64,000 nucleotides of DNA, taken from positions 139,380 through 203,379 of the forward strand of contig FIZJ01000016.1 in the NCBI GenBank assembly GCA_900019385.1. The letters run 5' to 3'. Source of the DNA: an uncultured Clostridia bacterium. Its GTDB lineage: Bacteria; Bacillota; Limnochordia; Darwinibacteriales; DTU012. The position numbers were made by a program, and so were the translations under genes. Below the pieces are notes generated by a model, which searched no databases, was not told the DNA's origin, and was given only the letters and a program-made list of their open reading frames with translations. Positions 3,827 to 9,698 of this stretch are shown piece after piece (the stretch's first letter is position 1; every line of letters starts with the position of its first letter).

Positions 3827-4225
3827 CTAAGAGACAATCCTGCCGATAAGCTGAATGCTTCGTCTCAGCCATCTGAAGAATTCCACTGCGTACCCTTCGG
3901 CAATCAGAATCCTTTCTTCACCCTGGCTGAGCGTCAAAGCGCACTCAGCCTCATCATACGGGCTCCAGCCGAAAACAATGCTCTCATCCCTCAACACCGC
4001 GACGCCGACAATCATTTCCACTTCCAGCTGACCATGTTTGGTGATCAGGGTTTCGGTAATCCCTTTGATCACTGAGCCGCTTTCGTCCCACGAAAACTCT
4101 ATCGTCCCCGATCCGGACGGATTGGCGGCTGTAAGCGCGATTACCAGGTCAGCCTCATGCCCAACGATCGCCAATTGACTCGAATGCTCCCCTGCAGACC
4201 ATTCACTGATTAGATGTCTGTGCAT
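3827..4225 (-). CDS. Hypothetical protein, 132 residues
   Basis: I do not recognise this family. The product is a small soluble protein without signal peptide or membrane segment. It is rich in beta-type hydrophobic stretches (QLAIVGHEADLVIALTA, QLEVEMIVGVAVL) and ends in a basic amphipathic tail with two neighbouring arginines. It looks like a compact beta-sandwich, but that is impression, not evidence. The gene is well supported: a near-perfect promoter at 4312-4340, an AGAGGAG ribosome site before the ATG, and a hairpin after the stop. Being monocistronic with a strong promoter suggests a protein made in quantity or under its own control. Neighbours give no clear hint of function. Confidence 0.75.
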   Translation of the reverse strand: MHRHLISEWSAGEHSSQLAIVGHEADLVIALTAANPSGSGTIEFSWDESGSVIKGITETLITKHGQLEVEMIVGVAVLRDESIVFGWSPYDEAECALTLSQGEERILIAEGYAVEFFRWLRRSIQLIGRIVS

Positions 4226-4351: not shown

Positions 4352-5137
4352 TTACCGTTCCAGCTCGCCGCTCCGGCTTAGTTCATTTAAGGCGCTGCTG
4401 ATCTCGACTACAAACTCGGGAATCCCCAGGGCGGATGGGGCGATCGAGTTGGCGTCGAAGTAGATAATGATCTTGTTTTCGCTGATATAAAAAGACTGAA
4501 GGTTGATCAAGTCCGATGAGCTGAACTCAGTTACAAAATACGCACTGGGATTTTTCTTGAGCTGGTTGTTGATGGTCTTAATCAGGATGCTTCTCTCCTG
4601 TTCGGTGGCGAACAAGTCGGCCAACTCAATGATTCTCCCAGTCGTCAAGTCGACATTCACAGTCTCCATGAACTGTGATCGCTGGTTGAAACCGAATGCA
4701 TGTGTGAAACGGACGGTCAGGCTCAATATGCCTCCGGAGTTGTAGTTGACTTTGAAGTCCACTTCTGTGCTGTGGCTGGGCAGCTGCTGTCCGAGCAGCG
4801 TGTTTTCCTGCAGGAATCTATTGGTTATGGTTTCCATCTCTTCGTCGAAATGCAAAATGCCGTCGTAAAACATGCTGTTCAGCTGCTCATAAAGTTCCTG
4901 ATTCTGGAGGCCGTGAATCACAGGGATTAACAGAACACTGGAGTACGAGGGGCTGACCTTTTCGTAGACGCGGCTCAAGATCACCACATCGGTATTGGGG
5001 AGCCCACCGATAATCCGGTACCAGTAGGGGTTCACCTTGTGTTCCACCGGCGCTGGGTTCGCGGCATGGCCGATGCTCGCAGCTGTGATCAAGATCATCA
5101 CAAACACCATTGTTCCCTTACACTTTGCGAGATGCAC
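4352..5137 (-). CDS. Secreted DUF4163/DUF3298-type protein
   Basis: Probable exported or lipid-facing protein of the DUF3298 family (the fold seen in RsiV and PdaC C-terminal regions). Residues 1-25 form a signal peptide (GTMVFVMILITAASIGHA). The DUF3298 hallmark region is ELADLFATEQERSILIKTINNQL followed by FYISENKIIIYFDANSIAPSALGIPEF. The part before it (about 40-150) matches the DUF4163-like segment. It has no enzyme domain and no extra transmembrane helix, so it is neither a full RsiV anti-sigma factor nor a deacetylase. The start is GTG with a GGGAGGG site. It lies 64 nt after the GGDEF/HD-GYP gene on the same strand and may be its operon partner. Ligand and role are unknown; lysozyme binding as in RsiV is only a loose analogy. 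Confidence 0.75.
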   Translation of the reverse strand: MHLAKCKGTMVFVMILITAASIGHAANPAPVEHKVNPYWYRIIGGLPNTDVVILSRVYEKVSPSYSSVLLIPVIHGLQNQELYEQLNSMFYDGILHFDEEMETITNRFLQENTLLGQQLPSHSTEVDFKVNYNSGGILSLTVRFTHAFGFNQRSQFMETVNVDLTTGRIIELADLFATEQERSILIKTINNQLKKNPSAYFVTEFSSSDLINLQSFYISENKIIIYFDANSIAPSALGIPEFVVEISSALNELSRSGELER

Positions 5138-5201: not shown

Positions 5202-6992
5202 TTATATTACCTCGCTGTTCAGCTCGTTCAGTATTGGGATCGCAATCTCGACAAGTTGAGGATCAAACTGGATGCCGGCATTTTCCTTTAGCTCTTTGAT
5301 GGCTTCGTCATGTCCAAGCGGCTGCCGGTAGGGCCGGAACCCGGTCATGGCGTCATAAGCGTCGGCAATGGCCAAGATTCTGCATTCGACAGGGATCTCA
5401 GTCCCCGACAAGCCAAGCGGATATCCGTTGCCGTCCCAGCGCTCGTGGTGGCAGAGAATTAAGCGGGAAATCCCGGCCAAGTGGGGCGAAGCAGAGGCAA
5501 TGCGGTAGCCCTTTTCCGGATGCTGCCTCATAATCTTTTGTTCCGCCTCCGACAGCTCTCCGCGCTTGTTTAAAACACTGTCGGGAATGCCCACTTTGCC
5601 TAGATCATGGACTTGTGCCAAAAGGGCCAGATCAGCCTGCTGCGCCTCGGACAGCCCAAGTTTCTTGGCGATGGCCAGGCAGATCTTTTCGATCCGCGCC
5701 GCATGCCCGTGGGTGATGTAATCCCGTTCCGCCAAAGCCGCCGTCAGAATCATGACAATCTCCGATTTCATACTGGCGCTGCGGTATAGCTTGTCGTGAA
5801 GCATATGGTCATCGGCTCTCCGGTATAGTTCCGTAAGCGTGGTGGATCCGTCCGACGCAGTGGCATAGCCCAGTGAAATACTAAGCGGCAGAGTCGGGTT
5901 GTCCTGATTGTAATGATCGACTGCGCTGCGGATTATTTCCACCAGAGTCGCCACCCGGCGCCGGCCATAATTGGGCAGAAGCACGCCGAACTCGTCGCCC
6001 CCCAAACGGGCGATCACCCCATTGTCGCCCACGCAGTCGGATAGAATATGGGCAAAGGACCGCAGCAGTTGATCCCCGCAGTGATGCCCCATGCTGTCGT
6101 TGATGATCTTCAAGCCGTCCAAATCCGCCACCAGCACCGACAGCGGATATGCGTGCGGTTCCACCTCTCTGGCGATGTATTCTTCGAAGTAGCTGCGGTT
6201 GTAAACGCCGGTGAGCACGTCGTGCATACTTAAAAACTCCAACCGCTGCTGGTAATCGATGCGCTCAGTAATATCCCTGACCAGCCCGCAGAAACCCGTG
6301 ACAGCTCCGCTTCTGTCCGTAATCAGCCCGATGGATGCTTCTGCGTACAAAATCGTGCCGTCCCTGCGCCGCATTTTGATTGTGTTCACTCGCCGCGGCT
6401 GCTTCTTTTCCCATACCTTGCGGAAAGTCCGGAAAACTCGGCGCCGGTCGACGCAAAAATGAAGCATGTTGACCCCCGCCAGCTCACTGGACGAGTAACC
6501 CAAAAGCTCGTACAAAGACTGGTTGCAGAATACGATGCGGCCTGAGAGATCGATCTCATAGTACCCTTCCTGCATATTGGCAAGAATGTCCCGGTATTTC
6601 TGCTCCGACAACAAAAGCGATTCTTTGATCTCCTTACGGGCCAGCGCGTCCTCCAGGCTGCGGGCAAAGATGGTGTACAGCCTTTGTTTTTGAATGGAAA
6701 GCGGCTCTTTTTGCTCCATATAAAGATATCCAGCTGCATTGCTGAAACGGTGCAGGTAACTGTTGGGCATATCCTTGTGGATCACTTCGTAAGGGTCTTC
6801 ATGCCACATAAACCCCCAACAGCCGCTGCAGTTGGACAATACCGGGTTAGCCAGCGAAAGAATCAGTTTCTGAACCCCAAGAAGCCGGCTTGCTTTTTCG
6901 ATCACCTGTTGGAACAGATCATCGCCAGGCAGCTCACTGTCAAAAGCGGAAATGTCCATGATCTGCAGCAGTTCATAAACATGCATGCTCAT
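5202..6992 (-). CDS. PAS-GGDEF-HD-GYP cyclic-di-GMP signalling protein
   Basis: Soluble dual c-di-GMP protein. Order: a GAF-like region (about 10-120), a PAS domain (about 130-245), a GGDEF diguanylate cyclase (about 255-405) with intact RLGGDEF, and a C-terminal HD-GYP phosphodiesterase (about 410-590) with HDLGKVGIPD, HPEKGY and HHERWDGNGYP. Both catalytic signatures look intact, so it may make and break c-di-GMP. No RxxD inhibitory site is visible five residues before GGDEF. A short cysteine-containing stretch (NCSGCWGF) in the GAF-like region could bind a metal or sense redox state; this is inference. The start overlaps the stop of the FIST gene as ATGA, so the two are translationally coupled. 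The c-di-GMP riboswitch near 56.3 kb is a plausible downstream reader. Confidence 0.93.
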   Translation of the reverse strand: MSMHVYELLQIMDISAFDSELPGDDLFQQVIEKASRLLGVQKLILSLANPVLSNCSGCWGFMWHEDPYEVIHKDMPNSYLHRFSNAAGYLYMEQKEPLSIQKQRLYTIFARSLEDALARKEIKESLLLSEQKYRDILANMQEGYYEIDLSGRIVFCNQSLYELLGYSSSELAGVNMLHFCVDRRRVFRTFRKVWEKKQPRRVNTIKMRRRDGTILYAEASIGLITDRSGAVTGFCGLVRDITERIDYQQRLEFLSMHDVLTGVYNRSYFEEYIAREVEPHAYPLSVLVADLDGLKIINDSMGHHCGDQLLRSFAHILSDCVGDNGVIARLGGDEFGVLLPNYGRRRVATLVEIIRSAVDHYNQDNPTLPLSISLGYATASDGSTTLTELYRRADDHMLHDKLYRSASMKSEIVMILTAALAERDYITHGHAARIEKICLAIAKKLGLSEAQQADLALLAQVHDLGKVGIPDSVLNKRGELSEAEQKIMRQHPEKGYRIASASPHLAGISRLILCHHERWDGNGYPLGLSGTEIPVECRILAIADAYDAMTGFRPYRQPLGHDEAIKELKENAGIQFDPQLVEIAIPILNELNSEVI

Positions 6993-8089
6993 GCCCGGTC
7001 ACCTCCAATGGTGACAGTCAGCGCACTGTTGTGAAATATCGGGACACCAAAAGAACTGTCGATCTGGCCGAAGGTCAGCACTCCCACTGCCGGCAGGCCC
7101 TCCAGAGTGCGGAAGGTATTCCGCGATTCTTGAGCGAAACTGTCCTTAAGCAAACTCTCCCGGGACACGCCGTCGAACAGAAGCGCGAACTTCGGCGCTG
7201 GATGCTGATGAAGCGCTTCCTCCGTGATTCGCTTGGCAATCGCCGGCAGCGCCAGAATACTTGTTGTCATCAAAGTCACCATGGACTTGGAAGGGATGGC
7301 GGTGACACACACCAACGCCTCGTCCTCGATGCGCATGATGTTGCGGATCACATACTCACCGTTCCCGCAGGGTATTCCCAGCTGGTAGCTTGATCCGATC
7401 ATCTCACTGTTTCCCTTTTCCAGTTGGTTGACAGCAGTGCGAAAACGAACGGCCGCCGGCTGCCCGTCCAATTCCCAAATGCGATTGCCTTCAGTGCGCG
7501 TAACCAGCATCGGCTCGCCGAAAGGAATCCACCCGTGGCCGATGCCGTACGTGAAATGCACATCTCTGATCAGAGCCGCTGCGACTCCGTCACTGGCACA
7601 CCCTTCCTCGGTAAACTGCACACCGGTCCCCGCGCCGATATATTGAAACTGTGGGCCCAGCCTGGAATAGACTCCACGGATCAATGCCGCCAGCCTAGGA
7701 TTCCTGACATTGGGAAAGACCATGACTGTCCCCGTCTGAGTTTCATCCTCTATCAAGGCCATGCCGGCGGTTTGGCCTACATCGTAGGCTTTTTGACCGT
7801 CAATGCTCACCAGCTTGGTTCGGGCGTTTATACCGTAGAGCGACAATACCGCCACACCCAGGCGGTACACCTCTTGCCCGGTGAAAATCCCATGTACCCA
7901 TCCACCGATAAAGGGGCTGCCTGCCAGTTTGCCGCTGGCTGACCTCCACAGAGTGTCAGGATCATAGCCGCCGGCATAGAAAACCACAGTCAAGTCTGGC
8001 AGCGGCCCGTGCACAAGGCTTTGCTCCAATGCTTCATAAACCGCAGCGCTTGGATCTTGGTTTTGACTTATTCCGATTCCAATCTGCAT
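6989..8089 (-). CDS. FIST-domain signal transduction protein
   Basis: Stand-alone FIST sensor (366 residues). The N-terminal FIST_N region (about 20-200) includes LTVVFYAGGYDP and the glycine-rich GGWVHGIFTGQEVY; the FIST_C region (about 215-355) includes LLFDGVSRESLLKDS and the closing GVLTFGQIDSSFGVPIFHNSALTV, trimmed here. FIST domains are known sensory modules thought to bind small ligands such as amino acids, commonly linked to GGDEF, EAL or chemoreceptor proteins. It has no output domain of its own but is coupled by a 4-bp stop/start overlap to the GGDEF/HD-GYP gene, so it probably modulates that enzyme. The start has an AAGGGAG site. It is probably the first gene of a three-gene unit. 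Confidence 0.9.
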   Translation of the reverse strand: MQIGIGISQNQDPSAAVYEALEQSLVHGPLPDLTVVFYAGGYDPDTLWRSASGKLAGSPFIGGWVHGIFTGQEVYRLGVAVLSLYGINARTKLVSIDGQKAYDVGQTAGMALIEDETQTGTVMVFPNVRNPRLAALIRGVYSRLGPQFQYIGAGTGVQFTEEGCASDGVAAALIRDVHFTYGIGHGWIPFGEPMLVTRTEGNRIWELDGQPAAVRFRTAVNQLEKGNSEMIGSSYQLGIPCGNGEYVIRNIMRIEDEALVCVTAIPSKSMVTLMTTSILALPAIAKRITEEALHQHPAPKFALLFDGVSRESLLKDSFAQESRNTFRTLEGLPAVGVLTFGQIDSSFGVPIFHNSALTVTIGGDRA

Positions 8090-8160: not shown

Positions 8161-8193
8161 CACACGAAAATAACCCCTTGAGCTCAAGGGGTT
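8161..8193 (-). terminator. Terminator of the GH43-to-araA operon
   Basis: A perfect 22-bp palindrome at 8172-8193 (AACCCCTTGAG and its complement) starts just after the araA stop. On the minus strand it is followed by ATTTTCG. With no loop in the palindrome centre, the actual hairpin would open 4 nt. Confidence 0.65.
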
Positions 8194-8210: not shown

Positions 8211-9698
8211 TTATCTGTAATATGCCTGGTTCCAGCGCAGTTCTTTCTTGAACTGATTCAAATCTGTGCGCTCGTCAATGACCACGCACTCAATCCCGGC
8301 TATTTCGGCAAAATCGACCATGTGCTCTACCGTCAAGGCTTGGCTGAAGCTGGTGTGGTGCGCTCCACCGGCGAGAATCCACGCCGCGGCTGCGGTAGGC
8401 AGATCCGGTTTCGGAACCCAGAGCACCCTGGCCACAGGCAGCTTCGGTAAAGGTTTGGCTTCCACCACTTCCACTTTATTGACAATCATCCGGAACCGGT
8501 GGCCTAGATCGATTACAGTCACGGCTACAGCCGGTCCAGGTGGCGCGGCGAAGATGGCTCTGACCGGATCTTCCTTGCCGCCAATGGACAGCTGATGAAT
8601 CTCCAAAGCCGGCTGTTCGGCGGCGAGAGATTCACAAATTTCAAGCATATGGGCGCCGAGGATCTTCATGTTGCCCGGTTCCAAATGATAGGTATAGTCT
8701 TCCATGAAAGAAGTGCCGCCCTGCAGGCCGCTGGCCATCACCTTCATGGCCCGCAGCAGAGCCGCCGTCTTCCAGTCTCCTTCCGCGCCGAAGCCGTAGC
8801 CTTTATTCATCAGGCGCTGCACTGCCAATCCCGGCAGCTGCGGCAGCCCATGCAGGTTCTCAAAAGTTGTGGTAAAGCCTGTGTATCCCCCTTTACGGAG
8901 GAATTTTTCGATCGCCAGCTCAATCCTGGCCTGGACTACCAAAGCATCCCGTTTATCACCGCCCGGTTTCAGGCAGTCCATCATAGGATAAGTGCGGTCA
9001 TACTCATCGAGGAGCGCCTGAAGCTCATCCTGATCAACCTGATTGTACAGGGATACCAGATCGCCAAGGCCGTAGCCGTCGACGGCAAAACCAAACTGGA
9101 TGTGCGAGCTGACCTTGTTTCCTTCAGTCACAGCCACTTCCCGCATATTGTCGCCGAACCTGGCAATTTTCACCCGCTGCCACTCGTGCCAGCCGACTGC
9201 AGCCCGCATCCAGCCTGCCAACTGCCGCTGCACCTCTGTGTCCTGCCAGTAGCCGACGATCACTTTGCGGTCGATCCCCAGGCGGGTGACAATAAAGCCG
9301 AACTCCCGATCGCCGTGGGCGGATTGGTTCAGATTCATGAAATCCATGTCAATTTCCTGCCAAGGTATGTCGCGGTTATACTGGGTGTGGAGATGCACAA
9401 ACGGTTTTTGCAGCCTTTTAAGGCCGTTGATCCACATCTGAGCCGGAGAGAAAGTGTGCATCCAAGCAATCAGCCCGACACAATTCTCCGCACTGTTGGC
9501 TTCCAGGCAAATCTTGGTGATGGCTTCGGCAGTGGTCAGCACTGGTTTGAAGACAATCCGGCAGGGAATATGCCCGCACTCATTCAGCTGATCGACCATG
9601 GCGCGGGAATGTTCCGCCACCTGTCTCAAGGTTTCATCGCCGTAAAGATGCTGGCTTCCAGTAACAAACCACACTTCGTATTGCTTCAGGTCAACCAT
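8211..9698 (-). CDS. araA: L-arabinose isomerase
   Basis: Converts L-arabinose to L-ribulose, the first step of arabinose breakdown, as a Mn-dependent cytoplasmic oligomer. Recognisable blocks are [16 protein letters not shown] at the N-terminus, [33 protein letters not shown] and SFMEDYTYH with the catalytic glutamates, GAHMLEI with a metal-binding histidine, and GGAHHTSFS near the end. The 495-residue length is standard. It is the last gene of the minus-strand unit GH43, VCBS protein, RND exporter, araA, and overlaps the RND gene by 8 bp. Its partner genes araB and araD are not here but at 17-19 kb, beyond birA-bioY. No AraR repressor gene is visible in the window. Confidence 0.97.

Follow-up and report, generated by a model that had tools for sequence, protein, structure and literature searches.

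The FIST and cyclic di-GMP enzyme gene pair

The window considered here is a stretch of 64,000 nucleotides from the draft genome of an uncultured Clostridia bacterium (assembly GCA_900019385.1, contig FIZJ01000016.1, positions 139,380 to 203,379 of the forward strand), and its subject is a pair of overlapping genes on the minus strand that encode a stand-alone (solo) FIST protein and a multidomain enzyme of cyclic di-GMP (c-di-GMP) metabolism (Table 1). The open reading frame (ORF) of the first gene belongs to the FIST family, with matches to PF08495 (88.5 bits, cut-off 23.2) and PF10442 (55.9 bits, cut-off 28.5) and to nothing else in Pfam. The enzyme matches GGDEF with 122 bits and HD_5 with 141 bits, as well as PAS, and is preceded by an N-terminal domain of about 130 residues, here denoted class A together with its relatives in other genomes. 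A first-pass annotation of the same DNA, made from the sequence alone, had described a FIST gene and a bifunctional c-di-GMP gene joined by an ATGA overlap, and the Pfam matches and the four bases common to both ORFs bear this out; the PAS domain lying between the N-terminal domain and GGDEF had been overlooked.

Both output domains retain their active-site motifs, ARLGGDEF in the GGDEF domain and HDLGKV and HHERWDGNGYP in the HD-GYP domain, as expected of a putative diguanylate cyclase and a putative phosphodiesterase, respectively. The inhibitory site (I-site) RxxD is absent from the window enzyme and from the five class A proteins of the window's family that were read (G..G, K..G or S..A in its place) and is present in most other class A proteins. 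The 2.17-Mb genome has no FIST match besides this gene and contains nine GGDEF matches, five HD_5 matches and a single PilZ match.

Table 1. Coordinates of the gene pair and of its domains within the window
Feature	Position	Strand	Basis
Solo FIST sensor protein (FIST_N + FIST_C) with HGW motif (H185)	6989..8089	-	Pfam matches; 366 residues
c-di-GMP enzyme: N-terminal GAF-like domain-PAS-GGDEF-HD-GYP	5202..6992	-	Pfam PAS_9, GGDEF, HD_5; 596 residues
N-terminal 130-residue GAF-fold domain (class A, predicted), proposed FIST-docking domain	6603..6992	-	AlphaFold2 model, PDB matches, FIST linkage
ATGA overlap of FIST stop and enzyme start	6989..6992	-	sequence; tight junctions in relatives; putative translational coupling
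PAS domain, enzyme residues about 129-250	6243..6608	-	Pfam PAS_9/PAS
GGDEF domain, enzyme residues about 251-402	5787..6242	-	Pfam PF00990; TIGR00254 251-402
HD-GYP (HD_5) domain, enzyme residues 419-580	5253..5738	-	Pfam PF13487; motif

Within the FIST gene, immediately 5' of the ATG of the enzyme, lies GGAGGTGA, a good ribosome-binding site. An ATGA overlap by itself is common in bacteria, and it is the recurrence of the tight junction, rather than the overlap alone, that exceeds chance. Among 28 FIST/class A pairs from other genomes in which the FIST frame is at least 330 residues long, the partner starts between -31 and +7 nucleotides from the FIST stop in 27; in the remaining pair, the junction is at -73 and the partner is broken. 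Conserved translational coupling of the two genes would be the natural reading of these junctions. A G-rich stretch (loose pattern) is found close to the FIST stop in all 28 pairs, which says little by itself because FIST ends in a glycine-rich sequence.

Predicted structure of the class A domain

The first approximately 130 residues of the enzyme match no Pfam family above cut-off, and the scan of the window domain contained no GAF match (PF01590 and its relatives) up to an expectation value (E) of 10. A GAF match was seen in one relative, L020, at 12.8 bits against a cut-off of 22.4. The Pfam family DUF3369 aligns with parts of class A but does not reach its cut-off (in L063, 19.7 bits where 27.2 are required), and it was not adopted.

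The AlphaFold2 model computed on 26 sequences (A2) has a predicted local distance difference test (pLDDT) of 87.7 and a predicted template modeling score (pTM) of 0.81, and consists of two helices, a small sheet and a C-terminal helix of 30 residues. The top PDB matches obtained with Foldseek are mostly GAF-containing chains (probability 0.99, with a weak E of 0.04 and none at or below 0.001), and VIA-align superimposes the model on the GAF domain 4g3k over 125 residues with Z of 10.6 and a root mean square deviation of 3.1, compared with a best Z of typically 7 to 8 for models that have no clear match. The GAF fold of the class A domain is thus supported by a predicted, not a solved, structure, and the earlier description of the start of the enzyme as GAF-like appears to be right as far as the fold is concerned. 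The likeness to GAF domains lies in this fold, for which the best solved matches are GAF (4g3k); the differences lie in the lack of a Pfam GAF match in the E range given above, in the size of 130 residues and in the short strands.

Distribution of the class A domain and its linkage to FIST

A profile of the N-terminal domain (A1, nine rows) was searched across 398 genomes of the phylum and detected the class A domain in 34 of them, in 35 genes with the window included (two rows of one broken gene in G105 were merged). Of these genes, 29 immediately follow a FIST gene in the same orientation; five (G369:C30, G329, G389:C8, G101 and G373) have no adjoining FIST, and one, a fragment at a contig end in G356, could not be assigned. 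Three of the adjacent pairs are broken by stops or frameshifts (L022 in G105, L082 in G400 and L066 in G315). Seven of the 35 genes supplied rows to the search model, for which domain similarity was the sole criterion; all seven follow FIST, as do 22 of the other 28. Given that FIST is found in only 97 of the 398 genomes, a random neighborhood would be expected to give almost no class A/FIST adjacency. The position of most class A domains directly behind FIST genes suggests that the domain is a docking site for the sensor.

A scan of named genomes with A1 yielded at least nine loci. Among the matches listed, eight have FIST upstream and one class A locus, L153 of Moorella sulfitireducens, lacks it; the four nearest named contigs among these matches are metagenome-assembled Bacillota.

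The neighbors of two class A genes that stand apart from FIST were noted. The gene in G369:C30 (L159/L192) adjoins a flavodiiron gene (by Pfam) and, as judged by eye, also lies beside genes for a rubredoxin-type flavin reductase and rubrerythrin; the FIST gene of the same genome (L079) is on another contig. The gene in G373:C226 (L158) comes after genes of an ATP-binding cassette (ABC) transporter, namely a PBP-like binding protein and an ABC ATPase by Pfam, which by eye resemble the tungstate/molybdate type. There are also solo FIST genes followed by genes for IclR-type regulators instead of signaling enzymes (L078 by Pfam, L076 and L081 by eye).

FIST phylogeny and the class B partners

In a tree of 70 FIST proteins, restricted to ORFs of at least 330 residues, the 29 class A-linked FISTs (including that of the window) fall into one set of 32 rows with support of 92/97, just under the starred level. 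The three unlabelled rows of this set are L061, which ends at a contig end, L060, a second copy in a genome that also has a paired FIST (G422), and L079, the class A protein of which is on another contig (G369). The sister set comprises 11 FISTs: the Halorubrum FIST and ten others whose partners carry a different N-terminal domain, class B (groups N1 and N2). The 43-row union of the two sets has support of 99/98. The class A label changes four times on the tree, compared with a mean of 22.6 after shuffling (none of 500 shuffles gave so low a number), a figure inflated by near-copies.

The histidine equivalent to H185 of the window FIST is present in 29 of 29 class A-linked FISTs and in 11 of 11 FISTs of the class B group, Halorubrum counted among the latter, and in all 40 it is followed by GW (38) or SW (2). 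Only six of the 30 other FISTs have it, three of which are the unlabelled rows of the class A set and one a Microvirga FIST beside a kinase. Where the window FIST has G307, 65 of the 70 FISTs have a conserved cysteine; the window protein shares its glycine with three close relatives. A phmmer search of the PDB for a solved FIST structure gave no chain at E of 1 or below.

The class B N-termini are found on kinases (L098, L106), a hybrid kinase (L109), a GGDEF-EAL protein (L100) and a GGDEF-HD-GYP protein (L101), so that the outputs behind this domain are exchanged. Haloarchaeal kinases located behind FIST have an N-terminus homologous to the N2 type (hhalign, 98%, E of 3e-13); the comparison of N1 with the haloarchaeal set gives 88%. 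All four of these haloarchaeal proteins contain HATPase_c. In three of the four haloarchaeal plasmids read, the FIST and kinase genes overlap by 4 bases, and in the fourth the annotated kinase start is 254 bases later, with the frame open upstream through a similar N-terminal sequence. The class B domain is modeled as a clear GAF domain (pLDDT 90.0, best Foldseek E of 3.6e-6). The class B profile A4 has 15 strong hits in the 398 genomes, 11 of them at a FIST gene by coordinates, after omission of eight weaker hits (E above 1e-9) that probably reflect general similarity to GAF domains; with profile A3, all four hits are rows of the model itself.

Taken together, FIST and the GAF-like domain look like an inherited unit, with the output as the exchangeable part. 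The absence of such a domain from the fused proteins read is what would be expected if the class A or B domain replaces a covalent link: the four fused FIST frames that were read (L051, L052, L055 and L056, a small sample of about fifty such frames of at least 580 residues counted by eye) pass from FIST through a linker or a coiled coil to GGDEF or PAS, with no intervening class A or B domain (domain names by eye, by Pfam in L055). The best match of the class A profile to a fused frame, with E of 0.0023 over 35 residues, lies within the FIST part of L056.

A proposed two-subunit switch and its alternatives

The observations above are, in our view, reasonably likely to reflect a two-subunit, kinase-free c-di-GMP switch in which the enzyme's N-terminal GAF-like domain serves as the docking site for FIST. 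Under this scheme, FIST would be the sensory subunit that binds a small cytoplasmic ligand. Docked on the GAF-like domain, it would pass on the ligand state through the long C-terminal helix of that domain and the PAS domain to GGDEF and HD-GYP, and the ligand would thereby set the balance between c-di-GMP synthesis by GGDEF and breakdown by HD-GYP. The proposal made at first pass, that a separate FIST protein acts on the c-di-GMP enzyme as a split receptor, is well supported by the conserved adjacency, the tight junctions and the FIST tree, that is, by comparison of genes. An analogy comes from NosP, a characterized solo FIST, which binds and controls the kinase NosK (PMC12570481).

A rather unlikely alternative is that the pair works as NosP does, with FIST binding heme and sensing nitric oxide (NO) or heme itself, and the NO-bound form controlling the c-di-GMP enzyme in the way NosP controls NahK or NosK. 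NosP proteins are described as solo FISTs that bind heme, sense NO through it and control kinases feeding c-di-GMP enzymes (PMC12570481, PMC8846402). The invariance of H185 across the FIST clade would fit this model, and so would the flavodiiron-type gene (ODP plus flavodoxin) at 1456-2643 on the minus strand, which keeps its order relative to the FIST pair in three of four relatives from the genus; the fourth stretch ends before it. Flavodiiron proteins belong to the NO/O2 reductase family. Against the model, the window FIST scores only 19.2 bits with the NosP equivalog NF041558, the cut-off of which is 450, and among the neighbors scanned there is no adjacent histidine kinase with response regulator of the NosP type. 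Furthermore, neither porphobilinogen deaminase (PF01379) nor ferrochelatase (PF00762) is matched in the window genome, which is 97.7% complete. PF01379 is missing from 11 of the 31 genomes with the pair, including all six examined from the window's family, although H185 is kept; it is present in the other 20, where heme sensing could apply, and heme might also be scavenged. Finally, outside the family a flavodiiron gene is seen in only one of 30 neighborhoods (Moorella-type, L192).

As no heme-synthesis genes were found in the window's lineage, an organic metabolite is favored over heme or NO as the ligand there; heme/NO sensing in this lineage is doubtful, with scavenged heme a possible source. 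A small nutrient, as suggested at first pass, may be the ligand. The neighboring genes were considered as a guide to the ligand and rejected for this purpose, as their order is not kept outside the family. The scanned neighbors are araA, MMPL, a DUF3298/PdaC-like gene, GpsA and the flavodiiron gene, with 3827-4225 giving no Pfam match. The order MMPL-araA-FIST-enzyme is shared by the window and the five relatives read from the family, and BLAST at an E of 1e-8 matched neither araA nor MMPL in any of 30 neighborhoods (20 kb or less) taken from outside it, a set in which several genomes appear twice and some members contain FIST without class A or the reverse. Directly after the enzyme gene, a DUF3298/PdaC protein is encoded at 4352-5137 on the minus strand; it is kept in the four genus relatives read and resembles the anti-sigma factor RsiV (61 bits, cut-off 250). 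A terminator-like hairpin at 8174-8190, between araA (8211-9698) and the FIST gene, came from a simple pattern scan in which the number of such hits is near chance.

It also seems unlikely that the two genes are merely co-transcribed, FIST having another target and the GAF-like domain of the enzyme sensing a ligand of its own or only dimerizing. GAF domains commonly do bind small ligands or dimerize, and several observations weigh on this side or against docking. Five of the 35 class A genes have no FIST alongside, and many other solo FISTs have neighbors that lack a class A or B domain. Six of the 11 A4 hits at FIST belong to the model itself, their place behind FIST having been the reason for selecting them, which leaves an independent figure of five of nine. 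Class B matches ordinary or internal GAF domains (94%) better than it matches class A. The two classes themselves give a weak full-length profile match with the larger class B set (hhalign, 24% or 69% depending on the direction, against class A controls of 4.3% for PAS, 2.6% for GAF, 0.4% for GGDEF and 0.1% for HD), and with the smaller class B sets hhalign detected no homology. Classes A and B are linked by fold, their sequence homology being suggestive, and both could be ordinary GAF domains that occur incidentally in FIST operons. Mere co-transcription is countered by the spread of the class A linkage over many families and by the variety of class B outputs behind FIST; in addition, the strands of the class A model are separated by fewer helices than those of the class B model, which may hint at a reduced pocket.

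A third suggestion, that the NCSGC motif (C55/C58) in the GAF-like start is a redox or metal sensor, can be set aside as highly improbable on grounds of conservation: the two close cysteines occur in the window protein and two of four genus relatives, yet at the second position the genus (five genomes) has C, C, Y, C and F and more distant relatives have Y, Y, R and K, and what is conserved nearby is WGF, the first cysteine being kept only among the nine rows of A1.

A broader scheme can be put forward tentatively, at somewhat less than even chances when taken as a whole. It posits two sequence classes of GAF-fold "FIST-receiver" domains, one inherited along with each of the two sister clades of stand-alone HGW-type FISTs in bacteria and haloarchaea, that connect a single cytoplasmic sensor to exchangeable outputs (GGDEF-HD-GYP, GGDEF, GGDEF-EAL or histidine kinase); the N-terminus of about 130 residues in NosK may be of the same kind, and in the window's lineage, which apparently has no heme synthesis, the ligand would be something other than heme or NO.

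Comparison with known systems

FIST is a widespread sensor family of which the ligand and coupling are little known, and a defined partner domain with consistent gene order offers small testable pairs consisting of FIST and a 130-residue domain. A lineage that has no matches for tetrapyrrole synthesis and yet keeps the FIST histidine also raises the question of whether FIST proteins originally sensed heme/NO or whether that signal is one special case. No description of the N-terminal partner domain was found in the open-access literature searched, in which few papers mention FIST domains.

The closest likeness is to the NosP-NahK/NosK-NarR/NosR systems, where a solo FIST is likewise encoded in an operon with its effector and the output is c-di-GMP metabolism (PMC12570481, PMC8846402). 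NosK of B. pseudomallei begins with about 130 residues that contain no recognized domain, and NosP and NosK bind each other in a two-hybrid assay (PMC12570481). A search for a sequence link to proteobacterial NosK turned up only two Microvirga rows, on plasmids. In the NosP systems, FIST binds and controls its partner (PMC12570481, PMC8846402), as is proposed for the window pair; the targets there are a histidine kinase and a response regulator, whereas in the window the GGDEF/HD-GYP enzyme is itself the adjacent partner. The window FIST also falls outside the NosP model, and two key heme-synthesis families are unmatched in its genome.

PMC8846402 further describes FIST domains fused to GGDEF, EAL or HD-GYP, as well as FIST proteins in two-component systems that feed c-di-GMP. 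Fused proteins of this kind, such as CdpA of V. cholerae, share FIST input and c-di-GMP output with the window pair (PMC8846402); they differ in being a single chain, whereas the window has two genes and an added GAF-like N-terminal domain that is not seen in the four fused frames read. H-NOX proteins encoded beside c-di-GMP enzymes, such as Hnox1/Lpg1057 of L. pneumophila, provide the likeness of a separate sensor acting directly, with no kinase, on the product of an adjacent gene (PMC8846402, PMC8738867). In that case, the sensor belongs to another family, with a heme HNOB domain, unlike the FIST of the window. The window pair is best described, by analogy, as a direct, kinase-free variant of the known NosP-NahK/NosK-like systems.

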